NCBI RefSeq assembly: GCF_014138625.1
Contig: NZ_JACJHY010000004.1
Coordinates: forward strand, 1 to 64,000
Direction of reading: 5' to 3'
DNA from: Aminobacter ciceronei
GTDB taxonomy: Bacteria; Pseudomonadota; Alphaproteobacteria; Rhizobiales; Rhizobiaceae
Length of the DNA stretch: 64,000 bases
Every line of letters begins with the position of its first letter. Within the stretch, counting starts at the first letter, position 1. The position numbers and the translations under genes were made by a program. The notes under the pieces are model-generated. The model did not search any database. It was not told the DNA's origin and was given only the letters and a program-made list of their open reading frames with translations. Positions 1,621-19,549 of this stretch are shown one piece after another.

Positions 1621-2367
1621 GTGGCGAAAGCCGGCTCAGCAAAAGCGCAGCGTATGGAGCGCCTCCAGGCAGAGCTGGCACAAGGCCGGGCGCTGCACAT
1701 CAGCGCCGTCGCGAAACTCCTTGACGTCTCCGAAATGACAGTGCGTCGCGACATCCAGCAGAACCCGGACAAACTGGGCTATCTGGGCGGTTATGTCGTG
1801 CCGCGCGGCATGTTCGAACCGGAGAACTCCTACACTCTTGATATGGCTGCCGATCAGCAGCGCGACGCCAAACGACGCGCCTGTGAAGCCGCCCTGCGTT
1901 ACGTCAAGGCCGAAGAGACAATCTTCATCGACTGCGGCACGACGCTCATCGAATTGGTCGACCTCATCCCCAACGACATGCCGCTTACCGTTGTCTGTTA
2001 CGCGCTCAACGTTGCCGAGCGGCTGGCACACAAACCGAATGTGACGCTGGTGATGCTCGGCGGCGTCTATTATCCCGCTTCGGCCACCTTCTTCGGCCCA
2101 GAGGCGCTGGCCACCATCGCATCGCTGGGCATCAACGTGGCCTTGTTGTCGGCCGCCGGTTTCGACTGGGCGCGAGGCGCGACCTGCGCACATTTCCACG
2201 AGGCCGAGATAAAGCGAAAGGTCATGGCCACTGCCAGCCGCAATATCCTAGTCATCGACACAAGCAAGGTAGGCAGACTGCGCTCCGTCCTGTTCGCCGA
2301 AAGCAGCAGCTTCGACGCGGTTGTCACAGAACGCAGTGAGGATGAGACCTCGCAGCGCTCCACATGA
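1621..2367 (+). CDS. DeoR-family transcriptional regulator
   Basis: A 248-aa protein with an N-terminal helix-turn-helix (about residues 26-46, with HISAVAKLLDVSEMTVRRDI) typical of the DeoR family. Its C-terminal sugar-phosphate sensing domain includes the DCGTTLIEL stretch seen in DeoR-type effector domains. The start is GTG at 1621, with GGGAG at 1610-1614 as ribosome site; that GGGAG is part of an 11-bp dyad GGGAGTCTCCC running up to the start codon. It is divergent from deoC across the nested palindrome, so it likely represses deoC, itself, or both. The effector is probably a phosphosugar such as deoxyribose 5-phosphate (inference). Confidence 0.85.
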   Translation: MAKAGSAKAQRMERLQAELAQGRALHISAVAKLLDVSEMTVRRDIQQNPDKLGYLGGYVVPRGMFEPENSYTLDMAADQQRDAKRRACEAALRYVKAEETIFIDCGTTLIELVDLIPNDMPLTVVCYALNVAERLAHKPNVTLVMLGGVYYPASATFFGPEALATIASLGINVALLSAAGFDWARGATCAHFHEAEIKRKVMATASRNILVIDTSKVGRLRSVLFAESSSFDAVVTERSEDETSQRST

Positions 2368-3410: not shown

Positions 3411-5630
3411 TCACTCGGTGCTTTCCATTGCTTCTGCGACGTCCTCGATCAGCGGCTGGTCGAGGAAGTCTATGGTCAAGGTCTCGAACGACCGCTTTGG
3501 GTAAGCGAAGTCGGCGGGATAGGCGCTGGAGACCCTGTCCGCCGCATCCGTGCCGACATCGATGCCCCAGAACGACAGATGTGCGGCGGTCACCGGGATA
3601 CGTGCCGCCCCTACCCTCCGGCGGCCATGCAGCAAGACGATTTCGGCAGAATGGCCGTTTCGGTTATGGAGAGCAAATCCGGCCTCGCATGTTCCCGAGG
3701 GCAGGACGGCATCGGCGACGCAGACGACACGGTGGCCGAGTTGCACATGTTCGAAGCTCAGGCGCCCGTCCATGACATAGAGCACGTAGCCGCCTTGCGC
3801 GTCGCCACTCGATACCAGCACGCCATCTTCGCCGGCGGCGCGATCGCGAAACGATGCAGTGACGACCATGGATCGTTCCGAACCCGCGATCATGCTGCTG
3901 ATCGGCACATGGCTCTGGCCCGGGCGGAAGACCAACCTGTCGCGCGACATCAGCCCGATGGGCGGCCGAGCGCGCAGCAATTGCACCAGCGTCCGGTCGT
4001 CGAGCGGCAGCACGTTGTTGGCCTCGGCTTCCTGCCACCAGCGGCCGATCAATTCCTTGAGCAGGTCCGGCTCCTGTCCGGCGCAATCCTGCGATTCCGA
4101 AAAATCGCCCTCGGTGTCGTAGAGCCGCCAGTCGTCGTCTTCATAGGCGTCGCCCTGGCGATGCTCGGTGACCGCCCGCCAGCCTTCATGCCAGATCGCG
4201 CGATGACCGAGGTTCTCCCAATATTGCGTGGACCGCGGCGCCGGTGCATCGGCATCGGCAAAGGTCGATGCGAGGCTGCGGCCGTCACAAGGCAACGGAT
4301 GGTCGAGGCCGGCAAGCGACATGATTGTCGGAGCGAGGTCGATGACATGCGAGAACTGCGTCCTGACTTCGCCTGTCGCGGCGATGCCGCCGGGCCACGA
4401 CACCACCATCGGCGAGCGCACGCCGCCAAGATCGACATGCTGCTTGTAGCGGCGGAAGGGCGTGTTGCCCGCCATGGCCCAGCCTTGCGGATAGTGCGCG
4501 CCGCCGTGACGGGTGCCGATCTGGTCGAGGCGCTTGAGCTGTTCGTCGACACTCTGCGGCAGTCCGCTATAGGGTGCGTTGGTGTCGACGGCACCATCCT
4601 TGCCGCCTTCGCGGCTGGCGCCATTGTCGGAGAGCACGATGATCAGCGTGTTGTCGAGTTCACCCAATCTTGCGAGCTCATCTACAAGGCGGCCGAGATG
4701 CAGGTCGGTGTGCTCAAGGAAGCCGGCATAGGCCGCCTGAAGATGGGTGTAGAGCAGTTTCTGATCGTCGGAGAGCGTGTTCCAGGCCGAAACCTCCTCG
4801 TTGCGCGGCGCAAGTTCGGTCTCTTCAGGTGCGATGCCAAGCGCCTTCTGGCGCAGCAGCCGGTCCTGGCGCGTCGCGTCCCAGCCCTTGGCGAAGACGT
4901 CGACATAAGGTTCGATGAAGGACCGCGGCGCCTGGAACGGCGCGTGCGTGGCACCGAAGGCCAGTTGCAGGAAGAATGGTTCCTCGTCGCGGAACACGGT
5001 GTGGTCGCGGACGTAAGAAATCGCCCGGTCGACCAGGTCCTCGGTGAGGTGATAATTCTGGGGAAATTCGCGATCGACCTGGTGGTTGTCCTCGCACAGT
5101 TCGGGCGTCATCTGGTCGGTGCAGCCGGGAAGGAAGCCATAGAACCGGTCGAAGCCGCGGCCGAGCGGCCAGTTGTGATAGGGTCCGGCCGGCGAAATCT
5201 CATGCGACGGCGTCAGGTGCCACTTGCCGACGAGATAGCTGCCATACCCCTGTTCGCGCAGCATGGCCGGCAAAAGCGCCACGTCGCGGTCGATTGAGCC
5301 GCGCGAATTGGGGAAGCCGGTGTCGGTATCGGACAGAAAACGCATGCCGACGGCGTGATGGTTGCGTCCGGTGAGCAGGCAGGTGCGCGTCGGCGAGCAG
5401 AGCGGCGTGACGTGAAAATTGGTGTAGCGCAGCCCGCGCGCCGCCAGCCGGTCGATTGTCGGCGTGTTGATCTCCGAGCCGAAGCAGCCGAAATCGGCCC
5501 AGCCGGTGTCGTCAAGCACGACAACCACGATGTTGGGTTTCTGCTGCTTGTGGTTGCGGCTCGTCGGCCACCAGGGCGTCGACTCGGCGACGGTGCGGCC
5601 GACATGGCCCGGAAACTTGTCATGTTTCAT
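3411..5630 (-). CDS. Sulfatase 1 (type I, formylglycine-dependent, cytoplasmic)
   Basis: A 739-aa sulfatase. Metal-ligand aspartates are D40-D41 (LDDTGWADFG), and the active-site signature C78-S-P-T-R followed by TCLLTGRN marks Cys78 for conversion to formylglycine. A GKWH block and an SDNGAS block follow in family order. About 200 C-terminal residues form a beta-rich extension, as in the long AtsA-like arylsulfatases. There is no signal peptide, so hydrolysis is probably cytoplasmic. It follows the FGE1 gene by 15 bp and abuts the nucleoside hydrolase; the start ATG has a GAGGAA ribosome site. It is more divergent than sulfatases 2 and 3 are from each other. The substrate cannot be read from sequence. 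Confidence 0.9.
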   Translation of the reverse strand: MKHDKFPGHVGRTVAESTPWWPTSRNHKQQKPNIVVVVLDDTGWADFGCFGSEINTPTIDRLAARGLRYTNFHVTPLCSPTRTCLLTGRNHHAVGMRFLSDTDTGFPNSRGSIDRDVALLPAMLREQGYGSYLVGKWHLTPSHEISPAGPYHNWPLGRGFDRFYGFLPGCTDQMTPELCEDNHQVDREFPQNYHLTEDLVDRAISYVRDHTVFRDEEPFFLQLAFGATHAPFQAPRSFIEPYVDVFAKGWDATRQDRLLRQKALGIAPEETELAPRNEEVSAWNTLSDDQKLLYTHLQAAYAGFLEHTDLHLGRLVDELARLGELDNTLIIVLSDNGASREGGKDGAVDTNAPYSGLPQSVDEQLKRLDQIGTRHGGAHYPQGWAMAGNTPFRRYKQHVDLGGVRSPMVVSWPGGIAATGEVRTQFSHVIDLAPTIMSLAGLDHPLPCDGRSLASTFADADAPAPRSTQYWENLGHRAIWHEGWRAVTEHRQGDAYEDDDWRLYDTEGDFSESQDCAGQEPDLLKELIGRWWQEAEANNVLPLDDRTLVQLLRARPPIGLMSRDRLVFRPGQSHVPISSMIAGSERSMVVTASFRDRAAGEDGVLVSSGDAQGGYVLYVMDGRLSFEHVQLGHRVVCVADAVLPSGTCEAGFALHNRNGHSAEIVLLHGRRRVGAARIPVTAAHLSFWGIDVGTDAADRVSSAYPADFAYPKRSFETLTIDFLDQPLIEDVAEAMESTE

Positions 5631-5645
5631 TGCAGTTCCTCGAAA

Positions 5646-6569
5646 TCAGAAAGATCCGGCTGATGGCGCCGGCATGTCGGCCGAGCATCGAAAGCCAAGG
5701 TGGCTCGAGGCGGCATCGACGGCGTTGGAGGTGCGCGCCGAGACGCGATAACGATTGCAGTGGCTGCGGTGGCAGAGATAGGAGCCGCCGCGCATCGCTT
5801 TCAGCTGGGGCTGGCTTTGCGACCAGCTGTCCGACGTCCATTCCCAGACATTGCCGACCATGTTGAACAGGCCGTAGCCATTGGGCTCGAAGGCATCGGC
5901 AGGCGCGGTCGAGAGGAAGCCGTCCTCGGCCGTATTCTCCCGGGGGAAACGCCCCTGCCAGATGTTGCAGCGGTGCCTGCCCTGCTCCAGCAGATCGTTG
6001 CCCCAGGGATAGATCCTGTCTTCGAGCCCGCCCCTGGCTGCGATCTCCCATTCGCTCTCGCTCGGCAGCCGCTTGCCGCTCCAGAGCGCGTAGGCAACGG
6101 CGTCGTTCCAGGAAATATGCACGACCGGATGGTCGTCGCGGTCGCGCCAGTCGGTGCCGGCGCCGTCGGGCCTCGACCAGTTCGCGCCGCGCACCGGCAG
6201 CCACCATTCCGGCGATCCGGTCTCGAGATCAAGCACATCCTTTTCGGCGCTGGGATGAAGCTGGGCGTAGAAGACGAAGGACCAGCCGATCCGCTCCGCC
6301 TCGGTGACATAGTTGGTCGCAGCCACGAAACGGGCGAAGGCGCTGTTGGTCACTGCCGTCCTGTCGATCAGGAAGCCGGGGCTCGCGACCATCCGCCGGG
6401 GCCCCTCGCGATCCTCGGCATAGGCCTCGGGACCATCATGGCCGATGCGCCAGATGCCGGCGGGGACAGCCGACATGCCGGAGAGATCAGCCTTGCGAGC
6501 GGCTGGCCTGGCCTCGTGTGAAGGGGCCAGTTGCGGCTCGCTTACCCGGACGGGTGAACAACACGACAT
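5646..6569 (-). CDS. Formylglycine-generating enzyme 1 (sulfatase maturase)
   Basis: Oxidises the active-site cysteine of sulfatases to C-alpha-formylglycine. The copper-binding cysteine pair is in GGSYLCHRSHCNRYR (Cys266, Cys271), matching the FGE/SUMF1 consensus. Other FGE hallmarks are TAVTNSAFARFV, HISWNDAVAY, GKRLPSESEWE and NVWEWT. Length 307 aa with no signal peptide is typical of bacterial cytoplasmic FGE. It is the first gene of a three-gene unit with sulfatase 1 and the nucleoside hydrolase. The N-terminus reads MSCCSPVR, so residues 4-8 (CSPVR) match the CxPxR motif that FGE recognises in its clients. The leader at 6593-6619 holds an imperfect dyad with GGAGCT/AGCTCC arms. Confidence 0.93.
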   Translation of the reverse strand: MSCCSPVRVSEPQLAPSHEARPAARKADLSGMSAVPAGIWRIGHDGPEAYAEDREGPRRMVASPGFLIDRTAVTNSAFARFVAATNYVTEAERIGWSFVFYAQLHPSAEKDVLDLETGSPEWWLPVRGANWSRPDGAGTDWRDRDDHPVVHISWNDAVAYALWSGKRLPSESEWEIAARGGLEDRIYPWGNDLLEQGRHRCNIWQGRFPRENTAEDGFLSTAPADAFEPNGYGLFNMVGNVWEWTSDSWSQSQPQLKAMRGGSYLCHRSHCNRYRVSARTSNAVDAASSHLGFRCSADMPAPSAGSF

Positions 6570-6713
6570 CGCGGCGTTTCCTGGTGATAGCAGGAGCTTC
6601 AGCTGGTGACTTCAGCTCCGGGCGATAACAGGATTATTTGACAAAGCTCCATCAGGGGCCAATACATTTAGGCTTGAAGGTAATTCCAATAGGTTATGAG
6701 GCAGGCATCCGCC

Positions 6714-7658
6714 ATGTCGTTCGAAGTCCCCAATCTGACGCTGCTCAAGCACTTCGTCACCGTCGCCGAAGACAAGGGAATATCGAAGGCGGCCAAGCGC
6801 TTGCGCATCTCGCAGCCGGCGCTCTCCAAGAATGTCAAGCGGCTGGAGGAGATGCTCGGCACGCGCCTGTTCGAACGCCATTCCAGCGGCGCCGACCTGA
6901 CGCCGACCGGGCAGGCCTTCTTCAACAGGGCGCAGATCATCGGGCTCGAATACGAACATGCGGTGCAGGAGATCCGCAATCTCCTGTCCGAGCAGGACGC
7001 CACCATCAGGGTCGCGGCCGGCCCGGTCTGGTCGTCGACGATCCTGCCGCCGGCGGCGTCACGCTTTCACCGGCGTTTTCCCAGGCATCGGCTGTCGGTG
7101 CAGACCGGACCGGTCGACCAGCTGATCGAGGATTTGCGGCTTGGGCGGGTCGACATCTTTGCCGGTGCTGTCATTGCCAAGAGCCGGCTGCCCGGCTTCA
7201 CCTCGCGCCGGGTCGCCAAGGCACAGATCGGCATCATGTGCGCCGAACATCACCCGCTCGCCAAGGTGGAGGGCCCGGTCGACCCGATGGAGCTGGTCAA
7301 ATACCCGTTCGTCTCGTTCAACCTGAACCGGGACGTGCTGAAGATGCTGTCCGACTGGCTGAAGGAACGGGGAGCGCCCCCTGCCCGCTATTTGCTCGAG
7401 ACCAGCTCGCTCTTCACCTGCGCCGAGCTGGCGCGCTCTGGCGACTATCTGTTCTTCGAATCGACGATGGTGGCCGGCAGCCCAATCGGACAAGGCCTGA
7501 AGGTGCTCAAGACCGACAAGGAGATCTTCCAGTACGATCTGGGCTTCGTCTTCCGCCAGGGCATGGACCGGCTGCCCGCCCATAGCGGACTGATGAAGGC
7601 GATGGTCGAGGTGTTCGAAAACAAAGGCCTGCGCAGCCCGCAGAACGCCGCCGAATAG
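6714..7658 (+). CDS. LysR-family transcriptional regulator
   Basis: LysR-type regulator with an N-terminal winged helix (LLKHFVTVAEDKGISKAAKR, then RISQPALSKNVKRLEEMLG) and a C-terminal periplasmic-binding-like effector domain. I prefer the ATG at 6714, which has AGG eight bases upstream; the in-frame ATG at 6696 has its AGG only two bases away. It is divergent from the FGE1-sulfatase 1-nucleoside hydrolase unit across about 140 bp, so it is the most likely activator of that unit. The effector is unknown; a sulfate ester or a sulfur-status signal is plausible but not shown. Confidence 0.88.
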   Translation: MSFEVPNLTLLKHFVTVAEDKGISKAAKRLRISQPALSKNVKRLEEMLGTRLFERHSSGADLTPTGQAFFNRAQIIGLEYEHAVQEIRNLLSEQDATIRVAAGPVWSSTILPPAASRFHRRFPRHRLSVQTGPVDQLIEDLRLGRVDIFAGAVIAKSRLPGFTSRRVAKAQIGIMCAEHHPLAKVEGPVDPMELVKYPFVSFNLNRDVLKMLSDWLKERGAPPARYLLETSSLFTCAELARSGDYLFFESTMVAGSPIGQGLKVLKTDKEIFQYDLGFVFRQGMDRLPAHSGLMKAMVEVFENKGLRSPQNAAE

Positions 7659-7670
7659 GCGGCAGCATGG

Positions 7671-7713
7671 AGCAATTCCAGGAAAACCGTGCAGCGGTTT
7701 TCCCGGGAAATTG
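7671..7713. repeat. Palindromic rhizobial-type intergenic repeat
   Basis: The core GGAAAACCG (7681-7689) and CGGTTTTCC (7695-7703) form a 9-bp stem with a five-base loop. Flanking AGCAATTCC and GGGAAATTG extend it imperfectly. It sits between the convergent ends of the LysR gene and sulfatase 2. The architecture is that of the short dispersed palindromes of Rhizobiales. It may also end transcription, though no T-run follows. Confidence 0.6.
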
Positions 7714-7769
7714 TGCAAAAACAGGAAGATAGAGCGTTCAGCACCTAAGCCGAAACGCTCTGTCAGGCG

Positions 7770-10001: not shown

Positions 10002-10123
10002 TGGGGCGCCTCGGAATTCGGACAAACCGGAGATGCCGCATCGCATTCATCGACCATGCCGCATCGATCGAAACCCGGCCGGCCCTGGGGCAAGCCGGGT
10101 CCATGGACTTTCTGCTGCAGCGA

Positions 10124-10948
10124 TTACATCGCCGCGCCGGGATCCCAGCGGATGACCCACTTCTCCAGCATCGAGACGATGGCAAAGCCGGTGATGGCGA
10201 TGACCGATGCCGTCAGGATCGTCGCAAACAGCCGCGGCGCGTTGAAGTCGAACATGCTCTGCAGCAGGAGATAACCGATGCCCTGGTTGGCGCCGATCCA
10301 CTCGCCGACGATCGCGCCGAGCACACACATCGTCACCGAAATCTTGAGCGCCGAGAAGATGTAGGGCAGCGCGCTGTAGATGCGGATCCTGAGGAACACT
10401 TCGGTCTTCGACGCCGACAGGACATGCATCAGTTCGAGCAACTGCGGATTGACGGCGCGGAAGCCGCGGACCGAATTGACCAGCGTCGGGAAGAAGCAGA
10501 TCAGTGCTGCGATCACGATCTTCGGCTCGATGCCGTTGCCGAGGATGATCTTGAGCACCGGCGCAATCGCGACGATCGGGATCGTCTTGACCAGGATCGC
10601 GACGGGATAGAACATCTCCTCGATGACCTTGTTGTAGACGAAAGACACCGCCACCAGCAGGGCAACGGTGTTGCCGAGGAGAAAGCCGAGAAAGGCTTCG
10701 GTGATTGTCGGAACGGCTGCTTCGACAAGCAGCGGCAGGTCACGCGACAGCGCGCCGGCGACGTCGGTCGGCGCGGGCACCAGATAGGACGGCACGCCGA
10801 ACAGCGTGACGACGAGCTGCCACAGGACCAGCGTCAGCGACAGCCCGAGCACTGCCATGCCGAGCGCACGCATCACTTCGGGGCCTGGGAGGATGCTCCA
10901 GATGCGAGGCAATGGGGCGGCGGTTTCGATGGAACGGTCAACGCTCAT
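10124..10948 (-). CDS. ABC transporter permease, NitT/TauT (SsuC/TauC) type
   Basis: Inner-membrane permease of 274 aa with about six hydrophobic segments. The EAA-like loop is near RAVNPQLLELMHVLSASKTE, as in BPD_transp_1 permeases of the nitrate/taurine/alkanesulfonate group. It starts three bases after the ATPase stop. With the Tat-exported SBP and ATPase it makes a complete importer. Since the operon ends in a sulfatase and begins with an FGE, the cargo is probably an intact organosulfate (inference). A sulfonate or other small organic anion is the alternative. Confidence 0.88.
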   Translation of the reverse strand: MSVDRSIETAAPLPRIWSILPGPEVMRALGMAVLGLSLTLVLWQLVVTLFGVPSYLVPAPTDVAGALSRDLPLLVEAAVPTITEAFLGFLLGNTVALLVAVSFVYNKVIEEMFYPVAILVKTIPIVAIAPVLKIILGNGIEPKIVIAALICFFPTLVNSVRGFRAVNPQLLELMHVLSASKTEVFLRIRIYSALPYIFSALKISVTMCVLGAIVGEWIGANQGIGYLLLQSMFDFNAPRLFATILTASVIAITGFAIVSMLEKWVIRWDPGAAM

Positions 10949-10951
10949 GGC

Positions 10952-11800
10952 TTATCCAGCTCCCAGCATGTCGCGCAGCCTGGCGACGTGGTGGCCCAGT
11001 TCAGGGGCGTCCTTCAGGGCAAGGTCGCGCTCTTCCGGCAGGTCGATTTCGAGAATTCCGCCGATCCGCGACGGACGTCGGCTCATCACCACGACACGCT
11101 GCGACAGGAAAACCGCCTCATGCAGCGAATGGGTGACGAAGACGATGGTCATCCCGCTCTGCTTCCAGATCCGCAGCAGCTCGACATTCAGCGTGTCGCG
11201 CACCAGCTCGTCGAGCGCGCCGAAAGGCTCGTCCATGAGCAGGACCTTCGGCCTTGTGACGAGCGCCCGCGCGATCGAGACGCGCTGGCGCATGCCGCCC
11301 GACAGTTCCGAAGGTAAAGCATCCTCGAAGCCTTCCAGCTCGACAAGCTTCAGCGCCTCGTGCGGGTCCATGAAGTTGCCGGCCTTCGGATTGGCCCCGC
11401 CGACCTCGAAAGGCAGGCGGACATTGTCGATCACCTTGGCCCAGGGCATCAGCACCGATTGCTGGAACACCATGGAAAATGTGCGCGAGGCGCGCGCCGC
11501 CGCCGGCGTTCCGCCGAAGATGGCAACCTTGCCTTCGGTCGGCGCGATGATGTCGGCGATGGTGCGCAGCAAGGTCGACTTGCCGCAGCCGGAATGCCCA
11601 ATCAGCGATACGAACTCGCCTTCGCGAACCGTCAGCGAGACATTGTCGATGGCCCGCACCGCCCGCGAGCTGCCGCCGAAGGTCACGGCGACATTGTCGA
11701 TCTCGATGGCGTTGCGTGCCTGAGAGAGACGGACGTCGCCAGAGTGGGCGTCGCCGGAACGGGTGGCCCCGGAAGCAGCGATTGTCGCCATCATGTTCAC
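10952..11800 (-). CDS. ABC transporter ATP-binding protein, NitT/TauT type
   Basis: A 282-aa ATPase with Walker A GHSGCGKST, signature LSGGMRQRVSIARAL, Walker B VLLMDEPFGALD and H-loop FVTHSLHEA, all intact. This is the SsuB/TauB-like class that energises uptake of nitrate, taurine and sulfonates. A short N-terminal extension of about 30 residues precedes the domain. The gene overlaps the SBP stop by four bases and is followed after three bases by the permease, so the three are translationally coupled. Confidence 0.92.
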   Translation of the reverse strand: MNMMATIAASGATRSGDAHSGDVRLSQARNAIEIDNVAVTFGGSSRAVRAIDNVSLTVREGEFVSLIGHSGCGKSTLLRTIADIIAPTEGKVAIFGGTPAAARASRTFSMVFQQSVLMPWAKVIDNVRLPFEVGGANPKAGNFMDPHEALKLVELEGFEDALPSELSGGMRQRVSIARALVTRPKVLLMDEPFGALDELVRDTLNVELLRIWKQSGMTIVFVTHSLHEAVFLSQRVVVMSRRPSRIGGILEIDLPEERDLALKDAPELGHHVARLRDMLGAG

Positions 11801-12801
11801 CGCTTCGTCCTCTGTGCTGCCGCAAGGATGCTGCCGTCGAAGACGTCGTCCGCCGTCAGTTCGGGCTTGATCTCGCCGATCTTGGCGTAGGTCTGCAGCG
11901 TCGCATTCCAGCGGTCCTTGCTGATGTTGGCAAAGCCGTGCTCGCGGGTTTCGTCGGTGTAGATGAAGTCCGACACGATGACCTTGAGCGAGGCGAGCTC
12001 CTTGTCTTTCTCGATCGCGCTCGACATCGAGGCAACCATGTCGATGGCCTCTTCGGGATGGTCGGCGGCATAGGCCCAGCCCTTGTCGCAGGCCTCGAGG
12101 AACTTCACCAGCATGTCGCTGTCGGAGCCGATCAGGTCGGTGCGGGCGATGTAGTAGTTGGACTGGAACTGCAGCCCGTTGTCCCAGATGCTCTGGGTGT
12201 TGTAGCCAGCCGGATTCTGTACGATCGGCACGTTCTGGGCAACGTTGGTCGGCCAGGAGGCGACGACGTCGACCTGCCCCTGGAGCAGGCCGGGGATCTG
12301 GGCCTGGATGAAGGTGATGTCGTCGAGCTTCATTCCGTTATGGTCGAGCACGACCTTGATCTGCGCGGTCGCGCCCTGGCTCGCGCCGATGCGCTTGCCC
12401 TTCCAGTCGGCCACCGACTTGATGTTGGATTCGCCGAGCGAATAGAAGGTCAGCGGCGCCTTCTGGAAGGCCGCGCCGAAGGTCTTGATCGGCAGCCCCT
12501 GGTTTGCGGCATACATGATCTCGGGCGCATAGGCGGTGGCGATCTGCGCCACTCCGGAGAGCGTCTCCTGCACCGTGTTGGAGTTCGGGCCACCGGGAAG
12601 GATCTCGACGTCGAGGCCCTTTTCAGCGAAGAACCCCTTCTTCAAGGCGACGATTTCGCCGGCGGCGGCTCCATTGAAGAGCCAAGCGAGTTGCAGTTTG
12701 ACCTGCTTCTGCTGGGCATAAGCGGGAGCCACGCCTGCAAGCCCCAGCGAGGCGAGCGAGATGATGCTGGCAGCTGCCAGAAGTGAACGTCGGCTGATCA
12801 T
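11797..12801 (-). CDS. ABC substrate-binding protein (NMT1/SsuA-like), Tat signal
   Basis: A 334-aa periplasmic binding protein of the NMT1/THI5-like class (LQLAWLFNGAAAGEIVALKKG at the mature N-terminus, KGKRIGASQG downstream). The first 30 residues, MISRRSLLAAASIISLASLG and on to APAYAQQ, carry a twin-arginine motif (SRRSLL), so export is probably by Tat. The paralogue at 14685 has a plain Sec signal. GGAGG lies upstream of the ATG. The 138-bp gap from FGE2 contains a tight stem-loop CCGCGTTTCGCGG (12853-12865) and longer arms CCATAAC (12873-12879) / GTTATGG (12906-12912). Confidence 0.88.
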   Translation of the reverse strand: MISRRSLLAAASIISLASLGLAGVAPAYAQQKQVKLQLAWLFNGAAAGEIVALKKGFFAEKGLDVEILPGGPNSNTVQETLSGVAQIATAYAPEIMYAANQGLPIKTFGAAFQKAPLTFYSLGESNIKSVADWKGKRIGASQGATAQIKVVLDHNGMKLDDITFIQAQIPGLLQGQVDVVASWPTNVAQNVPIVQNPAGYNTQSIWDNGLQFQSNYYIARTDLIGSDSDMLVKFLEACDKGWAYAADHPEEAIDMVASMSSAIEKDKELASLKVIVSDFIYTDETREHGFANISKDRWNATLQTYAKIGEIKPELTADDVFDGSILAAAQRTKR

Positions 12802-12939
12802 CTATATCCTCCAATCAGACAAACCCAACGACCTAGTTTCTGCGAGGATAGACCGCGTTTCGCGGCTCCACACCATAACATGCGTCGGCGAACTCATTCC
12901 ATGTGGTTATGGACTTCCATTCGGATCAGGCATGGTCGA

Positions 12940-13845
12940 TCACTGCCCGGCAAGGTCGCCGGCGCAGCGAAAACCGAGATGGCTCGAGGTCGCGCCGTGG
13001 TGGTTGCCGGTCCGGGCCGCAACGCGGTATCGGTTGCAATAGCTGGCGTGGCACAGATAGGAGCCGCCGCGCATCGCCATCAATCCGGTCGGCTCGCCCG
13101 ACCAGGGCGATGCGGTCCATTCCCAGACATTGCCGAGCATGTTGTGGAGGCCGAAGCCATTGGGCGGAAAGCTGCGCGCCGGCGCTGTCGCGAGGTACCC
13201 GTCTTCGGCGCTGTTGCTGAGCGGAAAGCGCCCTTGCCAGATGTTGCACATGTGGCGGCCGCCGGGATTGAGCTCGTCGCCCCAGGCATAGATCGCCCGC
13301 TCAAGCCCACCACGCGCCGCGGCTTCCCATTCGACTTCCGTCGGCAATCGCTTGCCGGCGTAGTTCGCGAAGGCAACGGCGTCGTTCCATGAGACATGGA
13401 CGACCGGATGGTCGCGCCGGTCACGCCAGCTGGAGCCTGTGCCATCGGGCTTGCGCCAGCAGGCGCCGCGAACCGGCGCCCACCAGTCCGGCGCGCTGGC
13501 GTCGGCGTCCGTTGCGATCACCGCGTCAGGATGGATCTGGGCCATGAAGACGAAAGACCAGCCCAGGCGTTCGGCCTCCGTCACGTAGCCGGTGGCACCG
13601 ACAAATGACGCGAAGGCCTGATTGGTCACTGCGGTCTTGTCGAGCAGGAACGCCGGAAGGTCGACTGCTAGCACCGGACCTTCGCCGTCGTCAGGATTGG
13701 CGATCGAGCGATCCTCCCCCAGAAGCCAGCGCCCAGCCGGTATCAACGCCATGTCAGGCCGGCTGCTGGCATCGAGCGGCGCAGGCGCTGCAGCTGGCTC
13801 GGCAACATGATCGCCTAGGGATCGGCCCGGAGAACAACACGACAT
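12940..13845 (-). CDS. Formylglycine-generating enzyme 2 (sulfatase maturase)
   Basis: A 301-aa FGE with copper-binding cysteines in GGSYLCHASYCNRYR (Cys265, Cys270) and all family blocks (TAVTNQAFASFV, HVSWNDAVAFA, GKRLPTEVEWE, NVWEWT). Like FGE1 it begins MSCCSPGR, containing a CxPxR sulfatase-type motif. The reading frame stays open upstream to 14643, but that stretch is antisense to the GntR gene. ATG 13845 also matches the FGE1 start exactly. It is the first gene of the minus-strand module and is divergent from GntR across the 18-bp palindrome. Having a second maturase beside three sulfatases suggests each module brings its own activator. Confidence 0.93.
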   Translation of the reverse strand: MSCCSPGRSLGDHVAEPAAAPAPLDASSRPDMALIPAGRWLLGEDRSIANPDDGEGPVLAVDLPAFLLDKTAVTNQAFASFVGATGYVTEAERLGWSFVFMAQIHPDAVIATDADASAPDWWAPVRGACWRKPDGTGSSWRDRRDHPVVHVSWNDAVAFANYAGKRLPTEVEWEAAARGGLERAIYAWGDELNPGGRHMCNIWQGRFPLSNSAEDGYLATAPARSFPPNGFGLHNMLGNVWEWTASPWSGEPTGLMAMRGGSYLCHASYCNRYRVAARTGNHHGATSSHLGFRCAGDLAGQ

Positions 13846-13879
13846 GGCGCCTTCCTGTCGAAAAATGGATCGGCGGAGT

Positions 13880-13908
13880 TTGACTCTTTCATGATCCTGC
13901 GTAAAGGT
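13880..13908 (+). promoter_or_regulatory. Possible sigma70-like promoter of the GntR operon
   Basis: A TTGACT hexamer at 13880-13885 is followed after 16-17 bases by a weak TAAAGG/AAAGGT hexamer (13902-13908). The proposed -10 overlaps the 18-bp palindrome, which is where a repressor would block initiation. Only the -35 is convincing. Confidence 0.35.
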
Positions 13909-13922
13909 AGGACGTCCTACCT
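13905..13922. promoter_or_regulatory. 18-bp perfect palindrome, probable GntR operator
   Basis: AGGTAGGACGTCCTACCT is a perfect palindrome centred at 13913.5, between the divergent FGE2 and GntR genes. It lies 17 bp upstream of the GntR start. GntR-family dimers bind short palindromes of this size. It is the only such site I could see in the island, so one operator may control both divergent modules. That role is inference from position and symmetry. Confidence 0.65.
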
Positions 13923-13938
13923 CTTGGAGGAGAGAGCG

Positions 13939-14688
13939 ATGTCGGGAACTGCCACCGAACGTGTCCTGCAGTATATTCGCCAGCAAAAGCTGGTTGCCGG
14001 CGACCGCTTGCCGGCGGAAATCGACATTTCCCGGATACTCGGCCTCAGCCGCAATTCGCTGCGCGAAGCCTATGCCGACCTGATGGCCAAGGGCCTGCTC
14101 AAGAACAAGCACGGCGTCGGCACCTTCATCGCCAACCCGCCGATCCTCAACGCCTTGACCGGCTCCGCCGGCTTCTGGAACCTGATCGAAAATGCCGGAA
14201 TGAAGGCATCTTTCCGCGAGATCCAGCGCGACCAGGTCATCGCGCCGAAGGAGATATCCGTCATCCTGGGCCTGACGTCCGAGAAGCCAGTCCATCGTTT
14301 GCGCTGGCTGTTTCTCGCCAACGGTCAGCCCTGCATTCTCGTCGACCATTTTCTCGCGCGCAGCGTGCCACCAGGCGCCTTCAACGAGAGCACGGAACAC
14401 GACGCGCTCGCCGCCATCGCTCCGTTCACCGTCATCGATGGAGCATCGCTGTCGACCCGCACCTCGGCGATCAACGCCACCGCCGACGTCGCCGAATTGC
14501 TCGAAGTCAGCGAAGGCGACGCGCTTTTGTGGAGCACGGCGCTCGTGCATTCGGGCAATGGCAGCGTGCCGTTGGCCTCGCGCTCCTGGATGGTGCCGCA
14601 GCTTCTCGCCAGCCATCAGATGATGGCGCTCGCACCCGTTCATTTTCAGGGCAGTTCAGCCCTTTCGCCGGAGGACGAACCGAAATGA
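13939..14688 (+). CDS. GntR-family regulator, HutC/UTRA subfamily
   Basis: A 249-aa regulator. The winged helix is at about residues 5-66 (ERVLQYIRQQKLVAGDRLPA, ending KHGVGTFIA), and a UTRA-type effector domain follows (PVHRLRWLFLANGQPCILVD). ATG 13939 is preceded by GGAGGAG; the open frame to 13891 would run through the operator and is not needed. The gene overlaps the next one (ATGA), so regulator, importer and sulfatase 3 are one transcript. Autoregulation through the adjacent palindrome is likely. The ligand is probably the transported sulfate ester or its alcohol product (inference). Confidence 0.88.
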   Translation: MSGTATERVLQYIRQQKLVAGDRLPAEIDISRILGLSRNSLREAYADLMAKGLLKNKHGVGTFIANPPILNALTGSAGFWNLIENAGMKASFREIQRDQVIAPKEISVILGLTSEKPVHRLRWLFLANGQPCILVDHFLARSVPPGAFNESTEHDALAAIAPFTVIDGASLSTRTSAINATADVAELLEVSEGDALLWSTALVHSGNGSVPLASRSWMVPQLLASHQMMALAPVHFQGSSALSPEDEPK

Positions 14689-15656
14689 CCCGCTTCACCA
14701 AAATTGTCCTGAGTCTCGCATCGAGCCTCATGCTCTTCTCGGCCGGGATGGCCGGGGCGCAGACCCTGGAGCCTGTGCGCTTCGGTGTCGACGCCTACAC
14801 CACCGGCTCGCAGATCTGGGTCGCCAAGGAAAAAGGCTTCTTCGAAAAGGAAGGCATCGACGCTCAGATCACCACCTTCGCCACCGGCGTCGAGGCGATC
14901 GATGCGCTGCTGATCGGCCGCGCCGATATGGCTGTCGGGCTCGATTTCCCGATCGTCTCGCGCATCCAGGGCGGCAAGCTGACCGTCCTTGCCGGCATCT
15001 TCCATTCCAAGCCCGGCTTCCACAAGCTGGTGGTCAGCAACGACATCAAGGACGCCAAGGATCTAGTCGGCAAGAAAATCGGCATCGCCACCGGCACCGC
15101 CCAGCACCTGATCACCATGAAGTATCTCGAGGAAAACGGCATAGCCGAGGACAAGGTCGAGATCGTCGGTTTCACCAGCCTGCTCGAGATCGTCGCATCG
15201 CTCCGCTCCGGCCGCATCGATGCCGCTTTCACCTGGGCCGACGGCACCGAGAAATCGACCGACGGCGGCGACCACTATGTGCTGACCGACGATGCGGCCG
15301 CCAAGCGCAACAGCAGCGCCTACATCGCCGCCCAGACCGAATTCACCGAAAAGCACCCGGAGCTGACGGTTGCGACGCTGCGCGCGCTCAATGCGGCAAG
15401 CCAGTTCATCGCAACCAACAAGGACGAGGCGGCAGCCCTCATCGCCAAGAACACGCGTGCCCCGCGCGACACGGTGCGCGACCTGCTCAACTACAATGAA
15501 TTCGCCCTGGCGCTGACTGACTATGAGCGCGCCGGCTTCAAGGAAGTCGCTGATTTCCTGGCCAAGACGAAAGCACAGCCGGTCAGCTTCGAAACGGGCG
15601 TCAATCCGAAATTCCTTGAGCAAGCTGCCCCCGACCTGGTCAAGCTGGGCAACTGA
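14685..15656 (+). CDS. ABC substrate-binding protein (NMT1/SsuA-like), Sec signal
   Basis: A 323-aa periplasmic binding protein with a Sec-type signal peptide (MTRFTKIVLSLASSLMLFSA, then GMAGAQ). The mature part starts EPVRFGVDAYTTGSQIWVAK, typical of NMT1-like sulfonate/nitrate-type binding proteins. It also has KKIGIATGTAQH and FTSLLEIVASLRSGRIDAAF blocks. The start codon overlaps the GntR stop as ATGA. It differs clearly from the minus-strand SBP, so the two importers probably have different ligand ranges. Confidence 0.88.
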   Translation: MTRFTKIVLSLASSLMLFSAGMAGAQTLEPVRFGVDAYTTGSQIWVAKEKGFFEKEGIDAQITTFATGVEAIDALLIGRADMAVGLDFPIVSRIQGGKLTVLAGIFHSKPGFHKLVVSNDIKDAKDLVGKKIGIATGTAQHLITMKYLEENGIAEDKVEIVGFTSLLEIVASLRSGRIDAAFTWADGTEKSTDGGDHYVLTDDAAAKRNSSAYIAAQTEFTEKHPELTVATLRALNAASQFIATNKDEAAALIAKNTRAPRDTVRDLLNYNEFALALTDYERAGFKEVADFLAKTKAQPVSFETGVNPKFLEQAAPDLVKLGN

Positions 15657-15667
15657 GCGGACCGGCG

Positions 15668-16492
15668 ATGACAAACAATCAAACAAGCGCGGCCACGCCC
15701 GGAGCTGCCATGCCTGCGGTCGTCTTCGACAAGGTCGGCATGGCCTATCCCGGCCAGAAGGCAGGCAGCGAGCTGATCCTGGCCGACCTCTCCGTCGCGG
15801 TCGCGCAAGGCGAATTCTTCGTGCTCGTCGGCCCCAGCGGCTCGGGCAAGTCGACCTTGCTCAAGATCGTTGCCGGGACCGAAAAGCAGACCGAAGGCCG
15901 CGTGCTCGCCAATGGCGAGACGATCGCCGGCCCCGACCGGCGGCGCGGCATGGTGTTCCAGTCGATCGAGGAGCCGCTGTTCCAGTGGCTGACGGTCGCC
16001 GAAAACATCGGCTTCGGCCCCAGCGTCGCGGGCAAGCCGCGCGCCGAATGCCTTGAAATGGCGCAGCGCTACGTCGACCTCGTCGGCCTGCGCGGCCACG
16101 AGCAGAAATTTCCGCATGAGCTGTCCGGCGGCATGAAGCAGCGCGTGCAGATCGCCCGCACGCTGGCCGCCCAACCTGAGCTGATCCTGTTCGACGAACC
16201 GTTTGCAGCACTCGACGCGCTGACACGCCGCGTGCTGCAGAAGGAGCTGACGCGGATCTGGCGCGAGACCGGCTGCACCATGGTCTATGTCACGCACGAC
16301 ATTCGCGAGGCGGTGCTGCTTGGCCAGCGTGTCGCCGTGATGAGCCGAGGCCCGCGTGCCAACATCACCCGCATCTACGACATCGACCTGCCCTATCCGC
16401 GCGACGACCTCGACAGCCGTTTCGCCGATGCGGTCAAGGCGATCGAGGGCGACATCGAAAGGGAGGCGGCTTCGCAATGGGAGCAAAACTGA
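15668..16492 (+). CDS. ABC transporter ATP-binding protein, NitT/TauT type
   Basis: A 274-aa ATPase with Walker A GPSGSGKST, signature LSGGMKQRVQIARTL, Walker B LILFDEPFAALD and H-loop YVTHDIREA, all canonical. It belongs to the SsuB/TauB-like group. It sits 11 bp after the SBP and overlaps or abuts the permease start. It is a functional counterpart, not a close copy, of the ATPase at 10952. Confidence 0.92.
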   Translation: MTNNQTSAATPGAAMPAVVFDKVGMAYPGQKAGSELILADLSVAVAQGEFFVLVGPSGSGKSTLLKIVAGTEKQTEGRVLANGETIAGPDRRRGMVFQSIEEPLFQWLTVAENIGFGPSVAGKPRAECLEMAQRYVDLVGLRGHEQKFPHELSGGMKQRVQIARTLAAQPELILFDEPFAALDALTRRVLQKELTRIWRETGCTMVYVTHDIREAVLLGQRVAVMSRGPRANITRIYDIDLPYPRDDLDSRFADAVKAIEGDIEREAASQWEQN

Positions 16493-17250
16493 TGCCATCC
16501 TACGCGTGGTCGGCGCTCAGCGTCGCTGTCGTCGTGATCTTCTGGCAGATGGCCTCGACCTGGCTGGTCGACCCGATGTTCCTGCCTGCACCGCTCGCCG
16601 TCCTCAACGGCGCCGGACAGATGCTGGCCGAGGGCACCCTCACCCAGTCCATCCTGGTGTCGATGATGCGCATTCTCTCGGGCTGGTTTCTCGGCAGCGC
16701 CATTGCCATTCCGATCGGGCTCGCCGTCGGCGTCTCGCCGGTGGCGCGTCACCTGGTCGACCCGTTCATCCACTTCTTCCGCTTCGTTCCGGCCATTGCG
16801 CTGGTGACCTTGTTCATCATCTGGTTCGGCGTCGGCGAGATGTCGAAGATCATCCTGATCGCTTATGCGACGGCCTTCATCGTCATGGTCAACACGGCCA
16901 GCGGCGTGTCCTCGATCTCGCAGGACAAGCTGAACGCCGCCCGCTGCCTCGGCGCCAATGAGCGGCAGGTGTTCTTCAAGGTGATGATCCCGGCCTCCCT
17001 GCCCTCGATCTATGTCGGCATGCGGCTGGCGCTCGCCTCGTCCTTCCTGGTCATCGCGGCCGCCGAAATGCTCGCCGCCGATGCCGGGCTCGGCTACATC
17101 ATCTGGACCTCGCGCCTCTACTTCCAGGTCGACTGGATGTTCGCGGCCATCATCGCGCTCGGCCTTCTCGGCTTTGCCACCGACCGGCTGTGGCGGCTGC
17201 TCGGGCGGACGCTGCTCAAGCGTTATCTGCGCGGCGTCACCGGCTATTGA
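16477..17250 (+). CDS. ABC transporter permease, NitT/TauT type
   Basis: A 257-aa inner-membrane permease with about six hydrophobic segments and the conserved loop DKLNAARCLGANERQVFFKV typical of this class. Two starts are possible. ATG 16477 (GGGAGG ten bases upstream) overlaps the ATPase by 16 bases. ATG 16492 (GGGAG upstream) forms a TGATG junction with the ATPase stop. Either way, translation is coupled. It completes the plus-strand importer that precedes sulfatase 3. Confidence 0.88.
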   Translation: MGAKLMPSYAWSALSVAVVVIFWQMASTWLVDPMFLPAPLAVLNGAGQMLAEGTLTQSILVSMMRILSGWFLGSAIAIPIGLAVGVSPVARHLVDPFIHFFRFVPAIALVTLFIIWFGVGEMSKIILIAYATAFIVMVNTASGVSSISQDKLNAARCLGANERQVFFKVMIPASLPSIYVGMRLALASSFLVIAAAEMLAADAGLGYIIWTSRLYFQVDWMFAAIIALGLLGFATDRLWRLLGRTLLKRYLRGVTGY

Positions 17251-17314
17251 TCCAATCGGCCGGGCCGCCCTCCTGTTGCGGCCCGGCGACCATCTCACAA
17301 GATCGGGACAGAGC

Positions 17315-19549
17315 ATGACTTCCGAATTTCGCGGCCATATCGGCCGCACGCACCACGAATCCGAGCGCGACTATGCCGACATCCCCAGCGGCCCTGCCGG
17401 CAAGCCGAACGTCATCTATGTCGTTCTCGACGACGTCGGCTACTCCGACCTCGGCTGTTTCGGCTCGTCGATCGACACGCCGAACTTCGATTCCCTCGCC
17501 GACACCGGCCTGCGCTACAGCAATTTCCACACCACCACCTTGTGTTCCCCGACACGCGCCTGCCTGCTGACCGGGCGTAACCACCACTCGGTCGGCATGC
17601 GCTATCTGGCCAATGCCGACATGGGCTGGCCCTCCGGCCGCGGCGCGATCAGCCATCGCGCCGGCACGCTCGCCGAAATGCTCAAGCTCAATGGTTATGC
17701 GACCTATGCGGTCGGCAAATGGCACCTTGCACCGACAGAAAACGCCAATGCCGCCGGCCCCTTCGACCAGTGGCCGCTCGGCCGCGGCTTCGAACGCTTC
17801 TACGGCTTCATGAATGGCAGCACCGACCAGTTCCACCCGGAACTCTGCCAGGACAACCAGCAGATTCCGCCGCCAGCGACGCCTGAACAGGGCTACCATC
17901 TGTCCGACGACCTGTCGGACCGCGCCGTGCGCTACATCGCCGACAAGATGGCGATCTGGCCCGACAAGCCGTTCTTCCTCTATCTCTGCTACGGTGCCGG
18001 ACATTTCCCGCACCAGGCGCCCGCATCGACGCTGGCCAAATATCGCGGCCGCTTCGGCCATGGCTGGGACGAAGAACGCGTACAGAGGCTGGCCAGGCAG
18101 AAGGCGATGGGCCTCGTGCCGGAAAGCACCGAACTGCCGCCGCCAAATCCCGGCGTGCGCGCCTGGGCCGAGCTTTCTCCCGAAGAGCGCGAGGTCTCGG
18201 AGCATATGCAGGAGGCTTATGCCGCGCTTCTGGGCCACACCGACGCCGCCTTCGGCAGGCTGCTCGACTTCCTCGACCGCACCGGCATCCGCGACAACAC
18301 CATCATCGTGCTGATTTCGGACAATGGCGCCTCCACCGACTGCGATCCGGACGGTACGACAAACGTGCTGCGCTGGTTCAACCGCCTGCCTGAGGACTAT
18401 GCCGTGTCGCGCGATCGCCTGGCCGAGATCGGCACGGCGCGCAGCTCGGGCAACTATCCCTGGGGCTGGGCGCAGGCGTCCAACACGCCACTCAAGCTCT
18501 ACAAGAGCTTCACCCATGGCGGCGGCGTGCGCGACCCGATGATCTTCTCCTGGCCTTCTGGCATAGCCGACAAGGGCGAGGTGCGCAGCCAGTTCACCCA
18601 TGTCACCGACATCACGCCGACAATCATGCAGCTTTGCGGCGTCACCGCGCCCGAAAGCATCAACGGCGTGGCGCAGATGCCGATCCATGGCGAGAGCTTT
18701 GCCTATTCCTTCGACGCGCCCGATGCGGCGACCGCCAAGCAGTCGCAATATTTCGAGATGTACGGCCATCGCAGCATCTGGCATCGCGGCTGGAAAGCGG
18801 TGACGCAGCACAAAGCCGGCGACGATTTCGACAGCGAACGCTGGGAGCTCTACCATCTCGACGAGGATTTTTCCGAGCTGCGCGACCTCTCCGGGGAAAA
18901 GCCGGAAAAGCTCGCCGAGATGAAGGAACGCTGGTGGGCGGAAGCCGGCCGCTACGGCGTCATGCCGCTCGACGACAGCGACGTGCTGTTCAAGCCGCCC
19001 TACCGGCCCGGCGCACCACGCTGGCGCAACGAATGCAGCTTTTTCCCGCCGATCTCGTCTATCCCCGCGGAAGCGGCGCCGATGACGCAGGACGTCTCGC
19101 ACCGCATATCGATCGAGATCGAGCGCACGGACAAAAACCAGGGCGGCGCGCTTGTCTGCTTCGGCAGCTGCCATGGCGGCTACGCGCTCGACATCGTCGC
19201 GAACCGGCTGGTCTACACCTACAACTATGCCGGCTTCGAGGTCACCCGCCTCGTCTCCGACCGGGAGATCCCGCTCGGCAAGACGACCGTCGTGTTCGAC
19301 TTCGAAAAGTCCGGCACGCTGAAGGGACGCGGCCGCCTGACGGTCGACGGCGAGCCGGCCGGCGAACATGTGTTCGAACGCACCCTGCTCAGGTTGTCGC
19401 TGTCGCCGCTTACCTTTGGACGCAGCAACGCCGAACCGGTCGATCCGGACAGGCAGACGAACCCGGATTTTTCGGGCCGTATCCTGCGCATCGACTACGC
19501 CATCGCAGATGATCGCGAGGTCGGCCCGGTCAACCTCGACGTGGACTGA
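17315..19549 (+). CDS. Sulfatase 3 (type I, formylglycine-dependent, cytoplasmic)
   Basis: A 744-aa sulfatase beginning MTSEFRGHIGRTHHESERDY. Aspartates D39-D40 (LDDVGYSDLG) and the signature C77-S-P-T-R-A-C-L-L-T-G-R are followed by GKWHLA and SDNGAS blocks. The C-terminal beta-rich domain includes GGALVCFGSCHGGYALDIVA. Of the two other sulfatases it is clearly closer to sulfatase 2 (shared YGFMNGSTDQ and SFTHGGGVRDPMI stretches). There is no signal peptide. It closes the GntR-ABC module, 64 bp after the permease. An in-frame extension upstream overlaps the permease and is rejected. This module lacks its own FGE and must borrow one from FGE1 or FGE2. Confidence 0.91.
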   Translation: MTSEFRGHIGRTHHESERDYADIPSGPAGKPNVIYVVLDDVGYSDLGCFGSSIDTPNFDSLADTGLRYSNFHTTTLCSPTRACLLTGRNHHSVGMRYLANADMGWPSGRGAISHRAGTLAEMLKLNGYATYAVGKWHLAPTENANAAGPFDQWPLGRGFERFYGFMNGSTDQFHPELCQDNQQIPPPATPEQGYHLSDDLSDRAVRYIADKMAIWPDKPFFLYLCYGAGHFPHQAPASTLAKYRGRFGHGWDEERVQRLARQKAMGLVPESTELPPPNPGVRAWAELSPEEREVSEHMQEAYAALLGHTDAAFGRLLDFLDRTGIRDNTIIVLISDNGASTDCDPDGTTNVLRWFNRLPEDYAVSRDRLAEIGTARSSGNYPWGWAQASNTPLKLYKSFTHGGGVRDPMIFSWPSGIADKGEVRSQFTHVTDITPTIMQLCGVTAPESINGVAQMPIHGESFAYSFDAPDAATAKQSQYFEMYGHRSIWHRGWKAVTQHKAGDDFDSERWELYHLDEDFSELRDLSGEKPEKLAEMKERWWAEAGRYGVMPLDDSDVLFKPPYRPGAPRWRNECSFFPPISSIPAEAAPMTQDVSHRISIEIERTDKNQGGALVCFGSCHGGYALDIVANRLVYTYNYAGFEVTRLVSDREIPLGKTTVVFDFEKSGTLKGRGRLTVDGEPAGEHVFERTLLRLSLSPLTFGRSNAEPVDPDRQTNPDFSGRILRIDYAIADDREVGPVNLDVD

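Follow-up and report, generated by a model that had tools for sequence, protein, structure and literature searches.

We describe here an organosulfate island at positions 3411-19549 of a 64,000-nucleotide stretch of Aminobacter ciceronei DNA (assembly GCF_014138625.1, contig NZ_JACJHY010000004.1, positions 1 to 64,000; hereafter, the window). The island probably joins two cassettes for import and desulfation that resemble the ats/sft genes of Pseudomonas, with a separate regulator and maturase for each. Read from left to right, the 16-kb interval holds SULF1(-), FGE1(-), LysR(+), SULF2(-), PERM2-ATP2-SBP2(-), FGE2(-), GntR-UTRA(+), and SBP3-ATP3-PERM3-SULF3(+), where SULF denotes a sulfatase, FGE a formylglycine-generating enzyme (the maturase), and SBP, ATP, and PERM the substrate-binding protein, ATPase, and permease of ATP-binding cassette (ABC) importers 2 and 3. 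A nucleoside-hydrolase-like gene (NH) abuts SULF1 and is part of the island's story. The proposal is built on computed gene families, active-site motifs, the lack of hydrophobic N-termini on the enzymes, gene order, agreement between trees, and conserved DNA motifs.

Profile scans of translated frames, covering a selection of the open reading frames (ORFs) of 366-29607, gave Pfam scores well above gathering for every gene of the 16-kb interval. These bore out the frames and families listed in an earlier note made from the sequence, namely three sulfatases, two FGEs, two SBP/ATPase/permease sets, and a GntR-UTRA regulator, and likewise the LysR regulator. All three island sulfatases keep the CSPTR motif and five other aligned active-site motifs, and the motif alignment includes positions of the Pseudomonas aeruginosa arylsulfatase (PAS) whose residue numbers we take to be correct. 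The C-x-P-x-R nucleophile motif and the PAS active-site residues are present, as expected of PAS-like S1 formylglycine (FGly) sulfatases. For PAS, the active-site residues include Cys51, Arg55, Asp317, and Lys375, and the enzyme (AtsA) is listed under SulfAtlas S1_4 (PMC5066984). The best PDB match by sequence for the island sulfatases was PAS (1hdh). An AlphaFold2 model of SULF3 (mean pLDDT 90.1, 28 sequences) returned PAS entries as its four best fold matches, at 34% identity and TM scores of 0.87-0.88 by target length. The island proteins thus share their active-site motifs, and SULF3 its fold, with PAS/AtsA, but at the C-terminus they are ~190-200 residues longer, and the extra residues form a beta-rich domain; Laminin_G_3 scored 21.4 bits on SULF3, under its cut-off of 27.6. 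Long sulfatases of the same family were also seen on a single branch in four Lokiarchaeota metagenome-assembled genomes (MAGs; L028, L030, L034, and L036) and in a MAG titled Klebsiella pneumoniae (L043), which is possibly mislabeled.

FGE modifies the sulfatase cysteine before folding. Both island FGEs scored above the PF03781 gathering threshold and have paired C-terminal cysteines, identified by alignment to 6s07 for FGE1 and seen in the sequence for FGE2, which we take to be the active-site pair. A simple hydropathy scan (not SignalP) found a hydrophobic N-terminus on SBP2 and SBP3 and none on any sulfatase or FGE, so that the lack of export signals claimed in the earlier note, which it had offered as a point of possible refutation, held. 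With no export signal on either FGE or sulfatase, both maturation and catalysis are expected in the cytosol, and the ester has to enter the cell. Across its own genome, A. ciceronei has eight PF00884 and three PF03781 matches; four of the eight PF00884 proteins carry C-x-P-x-R, namely SULF1-3 and a fourth, which an island FGE may also serve.

The two importers come from different lineages. Importers 2 and 3 share only 26% identity between their SBPs, 23% between permeases, and 44% between ATPases, and in trees of 21 ATPases, 26 permeases, and 14 SBPs (quick searches, with some long branches flagged) each grouped with genes of other genomes. Importer 2 fell with a Hyphomicrobiales MAG (L012) and genome G028 (L127), and distantly with L153; importer 3 fell with Alloyangia (L013), L012, two Acidimicrobiia MAGs (L023 and L027), and three Paenibacillaceae (L039, L053, and L075). 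SBP3 is SsuA-like and SBP2 is NMT1/THI5-like. SBP3 and PERM3 score on SsuABC/TauABC models, all under cut-offs; indeed, the six importer proteins stayed under every NCBIfam cut-off among the matches listed, including SsuA, TauA, NtrCD, and SaoA (for each importer ATPase, these were the best 25 of 187-188 families). SBP3-type proteins were found at E<=1e-35 in 1 of 385 genomes of the class, this one, with up to five candidates scored per genome. The mirror-image modules described in the earlier note therefore do not hold for the importers. In the stretches examined, either cassette can stand alone: Alloyangia has FGE2 divergent from GntR-SBP3-ATP3-PERM3-SULF3-NH, and G028 has SBP2-ATP2-PERM2, LysR, and SULF1. 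The Hyphomicrobiales MAG has both cassettes, rearranged. SULF2 and SULF3 are 58% identical and FGE1 and FGE2 60% identical, and these pairs may be old duplicates. As SULF2 lies in a clade whose members beyond the SULF2 branch adjoin importer 3, it probably switched importer, on the evidence of the trees.

The linkage of importer and sulfatase recurs well beyond Aminobacter. The order SBP-ATPase-permease-sulfatase is common to Alloyangia, the Hyphomicrobiales and Acidimicrobiia MAGs, and the Paenibacillaceae loci, so that the linkage for which the earlier note had proposed a survey is found in three phyla. Our survey took in 141 long sulfatases, comprising 79 named loci (from the best 80 of at least 579 relatives), 40 order-wide loci, and genus and family loci; the order-wide sample came from 347 genomes, of which 65 had a match, giving 93 matches beyond the genome itself from which the best 40 were taken, with up to three candidates scored per genome. 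An importer set within 7 kb on either strand was complete for 27 of the 141, partial for 5, and lacking for 109. In the 138-row sulfatase tree, the clade holding SULF2 and SULF3 (FastTree local support 99) was importer-linked in all 13 rows, compared with 11 of the 125 other rows, and the linkage label changed at least seven times over the tree. Importer linkage is therefore concentrated in part of the family and is no general feature of it. The 13 rows represent five lineages (eight island rows, two from L012, and one each from L013, L023, and L027). Within this clade, the sulfatase tree agrees with those of ATP3, PERM3, and SBP3, each of which reads Paenibacillaceae | (L023, L027), (L012, (L013, Aminobacter)). 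To judge from these comparisons, the right half of the island (GntR-SBP3-ATP3-PERM3-SULF3, with FGE2 divergent) is an old, widespread operon.

We then consider its control. The sequence AGGTAGGACGTCCTACCT is a perfect palindrome that ends 16 bases before the GntR start and lies 59 bases from the FGE2 start. It is intact upstream of GntR in the Aminobacter genomes G002, G006, and G009 and in Alloyangia, where the GntR is 48% identical, the spacer around the intact 18-mer has diverged, and the FGE shares 67% identity with FGE2 and 60% with FGE1. The Hyphomicrobiales MAG, with a GntR of 40% identity, has two overlapping copies with two mismatches each. In L027, a GntR gene again lies directly upstream of the importer-sulfatase genes; searches for the 18-mer at the Acidimicrobiia, Paenibacillaceae, and G028 loci found none (best 6-7 mismatches), and the viral contigs searched had none either. 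Within its own 6.77-Mb assembly, the 18-mer is a single site at up to two mismatches, and an exact copy occurred in 1 of 297 genomes of the order, this one. Given this strong phylogenetic footprinting, the palindrome is very likely the operator of this GntR, predicted to serve GntR-SBP3-ATP3-PERM3-SULF3 and FGE2. A perfect 18-bp palindrome would by itself be weak evidence, but a chance origin is unlikely as it is kept beside a 48%-identical GntR in an otherwise diverged spacer; a site for a global regulator was rejected on the single genomic occurrence. The island GntR shares its domain make-up with PhnF/HutC-type GntR-UTRA repressors, with the PhnF model scoring best at 98.7 bits, under its cut-off of 156.8.

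The left half appears to be controlled separately. Comparison of six intergenic regions, the SBP2 upstream region and the LysR-side spacer in each of the window, L012, and L127, gave a shared motif, TAACC-N4-GGAAT; the best shared 17-mer had a summed distance of 15, against 25-31 in 60 first-order Markov controls. The exact core occurs twice each in the window, L012, L123, and L125 and once each in L121, L122, and L127, and is absent from L013 and L124, stretches that do not have importer 2 or LysR. From left to right in the window, the motif is found as TAACCTATTGGAAT and TAACCACATGGAAT. The left half (SBP2-ATP2-PERM2-SULF2 and FGE1-SULF1-NH) is thus probably a LysR regulon, and its importer is probably under LysR and not the palindrome. 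The gap of 138 bp between FGE2 and SBP2 holds this separate conserved motif, though read-through from FGE2 into the left importer is possible. The earlier note had drawn two five-gene units diverging from the one palindrome. For the left half this is doubtful in view of the gap and its motif, and the palindrome as a control point for both halves is not borne out. The duplicated maturases that it reported are present as two FGEs, which are better read as one FGE per cassette.

We infer the substrates, transport, formylglycine formation, regulator binding, and inducers of the system as follows. Cassette A would comprise GntR, SBP3, ATP3, PERM3, SULF3, and the divergent FGE2. SBP3 would catch a small organic sulfate in the periplasm for import by PERM3 and ATP3, FGE2 would turn the CSPTR cysteine of the sulfatase into formylglycine in the cytosol, and SULF3 would free sulfate from the imported ester. 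GntR, bound to the 18-bp palindrome, would repress transcription both ways until the substrate or product occupied its UTRA domain. In cassette B, LysR, FGE1, SULF1, NH, SBP2, ATP2, and PERM2 would perform the same task for a different ligand, SULF2 having been recruited to importer 2; the two similar boxes proposed as LysR sites lie in the FGE1-LysR spacer and before SBP2. The gain from the cassettes could be sulfur, carbon, or both. Import of intact esters followed by cytoplasmic desulfation, as first proposed from the sequence, fits the recurring linkage, the clade-wide importers, and the match between trees; the interpretation as a whole is partly supported.

Several observations weigh against this proposal. 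Beyond the island loci, a complete importer set was near only 13 of 126 long sulfatases (11 of 121 loci), and the 40 order-wide loci included one complete set (L153) and one partial set (L136). Distant importers are undercounted here, since the sample was picked by similarity to window proteins and the neighbor queries were the window importers. The sulfatases of the Paenibacillaceae branch elsewhere in the sulfatase tree, though their importers belong to the importer 3 lineage, and therefore importer and sulfatase did not always move together. Island SULF1 counts as importer-linked only via importer 2, ~6 kb away, and FGE was not seen in the stretches examined of L012 and L127. An N-terminus without a hydrophobic stretch was found in 115 of 118 measurable long-sulfatase rows (20 of 138 were not measurable), whether or not an importer was nearby; cytosolic location is therefore a family trait, and the N-terminus alone does not tie sulfatase to importer. 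In the window alone, TAACC-N4-GGAAT at up to one mismatch occurred three times, against 0.89 expected, and 5 of 100 shuffles reached three. As this count is only mildly rare, the case for the LysR box rests on position and conservation, as do the proposed GntR and LysR assignments.

The strongest alternative, which we consider a serious but lesser contender, is pure sulfur scavenging, in which broad aryl and alkyl sulfate import serves sulfate starvation exactly as in ats/sft and substrate identity is unimportant. The best structural and sequence relative of the sulfatases is the P. aeruginosa arylsulfatase, SBP3 is SsuA-like, and a luciferase-type monooxygenase gene adjoins the L027 locus. 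In PAO1, atsA rises over 95-fold in sulfur starvation (PMC12581299), and the UW4 atsACBR-sftR genes hold a sulfatase, an importer, and a LysR regulator (PMC3596284). However, the GntR-UTRA gene lies within the locus and has one genomic site, which points to a switch dedicated to a particular ligand and not to a starvation regulon, and the presence of two distantly related importers next to sister sulfatases points to two ligands.

The best clue to the substrate is NH. One base separates the SULF1 stop codon from the NH start, and deoR and deoC lie beyond. Five of 10 Aminobacter genomes carry such an NH (77-100% identical), directly after SULF1 in every case, and one of the five (G007) holds only the 3' part of SULF1; at E<=1e-55, it was found in 1 of 397 genomes of the order, this one, with up to five candidates scored per genome. 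The DxDxGxDD motif, which we take to be the calcium site, is kept, as in nucleoside hydrolases of the IUNH type. At the C-terminal H-D motif, whose His is the usual catalytic residue of nucleoside hydrolases, all five Aminobacter proteins read ALGDAG, with Gly for His, whereas the 11 comparators covering this position have H-D (8) or D-D (3). NH falls under the NCBIfam equivalog cut-offs of RihC (238 of 382) and RihA (225.9 of 433), and all five Aminobacter proteins have HGHNG where comparators differ. In Alloyangia, an NH-family gene (32% identical, His kept) abuts SULF3.

These features raise the idea of a dedicated pathway for sulfated nucleosides or related N-glycosides, which at present looks unlikely. 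Here, a ThiY-like importer would bring in a sulfated nucleoside or N-riboside, SULF1 would desulfate it, a specialized NH-like enzyme without the usual His would cut the glycosidic bond, and deo enzymes (deoC, with aldehyde dehydrogenase [ALDH] and PfkB) would dispose of the (deoxy)ribose. NH stands right behind SULF1 wherever it occurs in the genus; G009 carries FGE1-SULF1-NH-deoC-ALDH-nucleoside deoxyribosyltransferase-PfkB on one strand; besides the Alloyangia gene, another NH-family gene adjoins importer and sulfatase in L153; and solved SBP2 relatives include the pyrimidine-precursor binder 3ix1. Sulfated nucleosides are natural products, rare outside spiders (PMC6940665). Against this, the usual catalytic His is missing, the DeoR gene on the opposite strand parts NH from deoC in the window, and a deoxyribosyltransferase match is absent from the A. 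ciceronei assembly. The deoC-ALDH stretch is near-identical to a second copy (99.8% over 3407 bp in G002), and its position may therefore stem from recombination. In G008 (81% complete), deoC and deoxyribosyltransferase genes lie ~3 kb apart with no close NH copy. NH-family genes are common (2-6 per Aminobacter genome at E<=1e-30), one lay within 7 kb of only 2 of 126 non-island long sulfatases, near the rough base rate, and SULF1 stands without NH in the stretches examined of L012 and L127. The second deoC copy elsewhere in the A. ciceronei genome is 96% identical in amino acids and 94.4% in DNA over 1047 bp. Contigs C4 and C30 of this assembly begin with the same 95 bp, and the deoC-ALDH stretch (1-1312) is present twice; the identical starts point to an assembly break at the deoC repeat. 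A sulfoglycolysis reading of the DeoC/DeoR neighbors was dropped, as 366-1427 passes the deoC cut-off.

It is improbable that the importers serve to take up other nutrients, such as thiamine precursors, nitrate, or sulfonates, and have the sulfatases as accidental neighbors; SBP2 does resemble binders of HMP/thiamine precursors and SBP3 resembles SsuA/TauA, but none of the six importer proteins reached a named-family cut-off, as noted above, and importer 3 and sulfatase branch alike in Pseudomonadota and Actinomycetota. Origin of the two halves from a single unit by inverted tandem duplication, suggested by the shared gene order and the identities of the SULF2/SULF3 and FGE1/FGE2 pairs, was rejected for the importers and has hardly any standing, given the low importer identities, the grouping of each importer with other genomes and not with the other half, and the occurrence of importer 3 without importer 2 in the Alloyangia stretch and the reverse in the G028 stretch.

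Returning to the two joined cassettes, all three sulfatases are found in the same order in 4 of 10 Aminobacter genomes (this one, G002, G006, and G009), and A. aganoensis NZ_JACHOU010000002.1 (L014) carries the same island. G007 has a remnant (L205, G007:C19, 7944-10106) made up of SULF1 from residue 428 (the last 312 residues, 80% identical), NH, and a deoC start at the contig end, with the remaining island absent from that contig; the other five genomes, the 81% complete G008 among them, had no island match. The right-side neighbors R1-R7 are common to the window and G002 and missing from the G009 and G006 stretches examined, so the island border probably lies just past SULF3. Plasmid carriage was rejected, as plasmid searches gave no SBP3 match at E<=1e-30, no SBP2 match at E<=1e-60, and only DNA pieces of 42-48 bp.

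The import-and-desulfate strategy itself is known. About 95% of soil sulfur is organic (PMC4267179). To our knowledge, few sulfatases have been matched to the importers that supply them. In Pseudomonas UW4, atsACBR-sftR-atsK-sftP combines an arylsulfatase, a sulfonate-type importer, and a LysR regulator, with a proposed role in sulfate-ester desulfurization (PMC3596284), a precedent that agrees with the statement in the earlier note that arylsulfatases beside ABC genes are known. The island shares with ats/sft an FGly-type sulfatase without an export signal and the adjacent NitT/TauT-class SBP, permease, and ATPase. As for the LysR of ats/sft, cassette B has a LysR with a conserved box as its putative regulator, and cassette A has GntR instead. 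The island further differs in its two importer lineages, three longer sulfatases, two FGEs, GntR with its own site, and NH, and neither an AtsK-like dioxygenase nor a TonB receptor was present among the ORFs scanned with Pfam. Term searches of the open-license literature found no paper that describes this paired arrangement or a pathway for nucleoside sulfates in bacteria. New relative to the literature searched are two distantly related importers paired with sister sulfatases, a separate maturase and regulator for each cassette, an operon shared across phyla, a GntR operator predicted by footprinting, and the connection to NH. Because importer lineage and sulfatase clade branch alike in Pseudomonadota and Actinomycetota, substrate identification is directly testable with one SBP, one sulfatase, one regulator, and one operator; the same gene order is also found in Bacillota. 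If NH does share the pathway, the substrate class would be one without a bacterial pathway in that literature.

The features of the island and its left edge are collected in the table. Alignment and position make starts at 10001 for SULF2, 17315 for SULF3, and 6714 for LysR probable. On the same grounds, FGE2 probably has 301 amino acids (aa) and does not correspond to the 567-aa frame, which overlaps GntR.

Table. Coordinates of the island genes, regulatory sites, and left-edge neighbors in the window, with supporting evidence
Feature	Coordinates	Strand	Evidence
deoC (deoxyribose-phosphate aldolase), island edge	366..1427	-	TIGR00126 139.4 bits, cut-off 117.3; PF01791
DeoR-type repressor, between NH and deoC	1621..2367	+	PF00455/PF08220; DeoR model 184.8 bits, under cut-off 244
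NH, ribonucleoside-hydrolase-like	2435..3409	-	PF01156 272.6 bits; alignments
SULF1, FGly-type sulfatase, 739 aa	3411..5630	-	PF00884 220.9 bits, cut-off 25; CSPTR
FGE1, formylglycine-generating enzyme	5646..6569	-	PF03781 243.2 bits; best PDB match 6s07, E 4.6e-100
LysR-linked box between FGE1 and LysR	6680..6696; TAACCTATTGGAAT on - strand at 6683-6696		Footprinting
LysR-type regulator	6696..7658, start probably 6714	+	PF00126/PF03466; linkage with importer 2 and SULF1 also seen in L012 and L127
SULF2, FGly-type sulfatase, 743 aa	7770..10001	-	PF00884 206.9 bits
PERM2, importer 2 permease	10124..10948	-	PF00528 91.3 bits
ATP2, importer 2 ATPase	10952..11800	-	PF00005 116.1 bits
SBP2, NMT1/THI5-type substrate-binding protein, signal sequence	11797..12801	-	PF09084 159.8 bits; PDB 4nmy, 3ix1; hydropathy
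LysR-linked box upstream of SBP2	12894..12911; TAACCACATGGAAT on - strand at 12896-12909		Footprinting
FGE2, formylglycine-generating enzyme	12940..13845	-	PF03781 250 bits
18-bp palindrome AGGTAGGACGTCCTACCT, putative GntR operator	13905..13922		Conservation and genome scans
GntR/UTRA regulator	13939..14688	+	PF00392/PF07702
SBP3, SsuA-like substrate-binding protein, signal sequence	14685..15656	+	PF09084 90 bits; TIGR01728 119.2 bits, under cut-off 163.5; hydropathy
ATP3, importer 3 ATPase	15668..16492	+	PF00005 107.6 bits
PERM3, importer 3 permease	16477..17250	+	PF00528 100.7 bits
SULF3, FGly-type sulfatase, 744 aa, extra beta-rich C-terminal domain (~residues 570-730)	17315..19549	+	PF00884 212 bits

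Some features of the surroundings of the island were also noted. ARAGORN called a tRNA-Ala (ggc) at 19912-19999, inside a LysR gene at 19735-20766. This is probably a false call, as an Rfam scan of the window gave nothing at gathering score, and tRNA-linked integration was rejected on the same two grounds. Two permeases of the xanthine/uracil type and an amidohydrolase lie beyond the right end of the island (23888-26640 and 34893-36185) and suggest a nucleobase-catabolism neighborhood. Two further ABC importer clusters occupy 28297-45805; the second also contains an FGGY kinase and a DAO gene resembling glycerol-3-phosphate oxidase. An open frame of 2863 aa runs along the - strand at 49908-58499.

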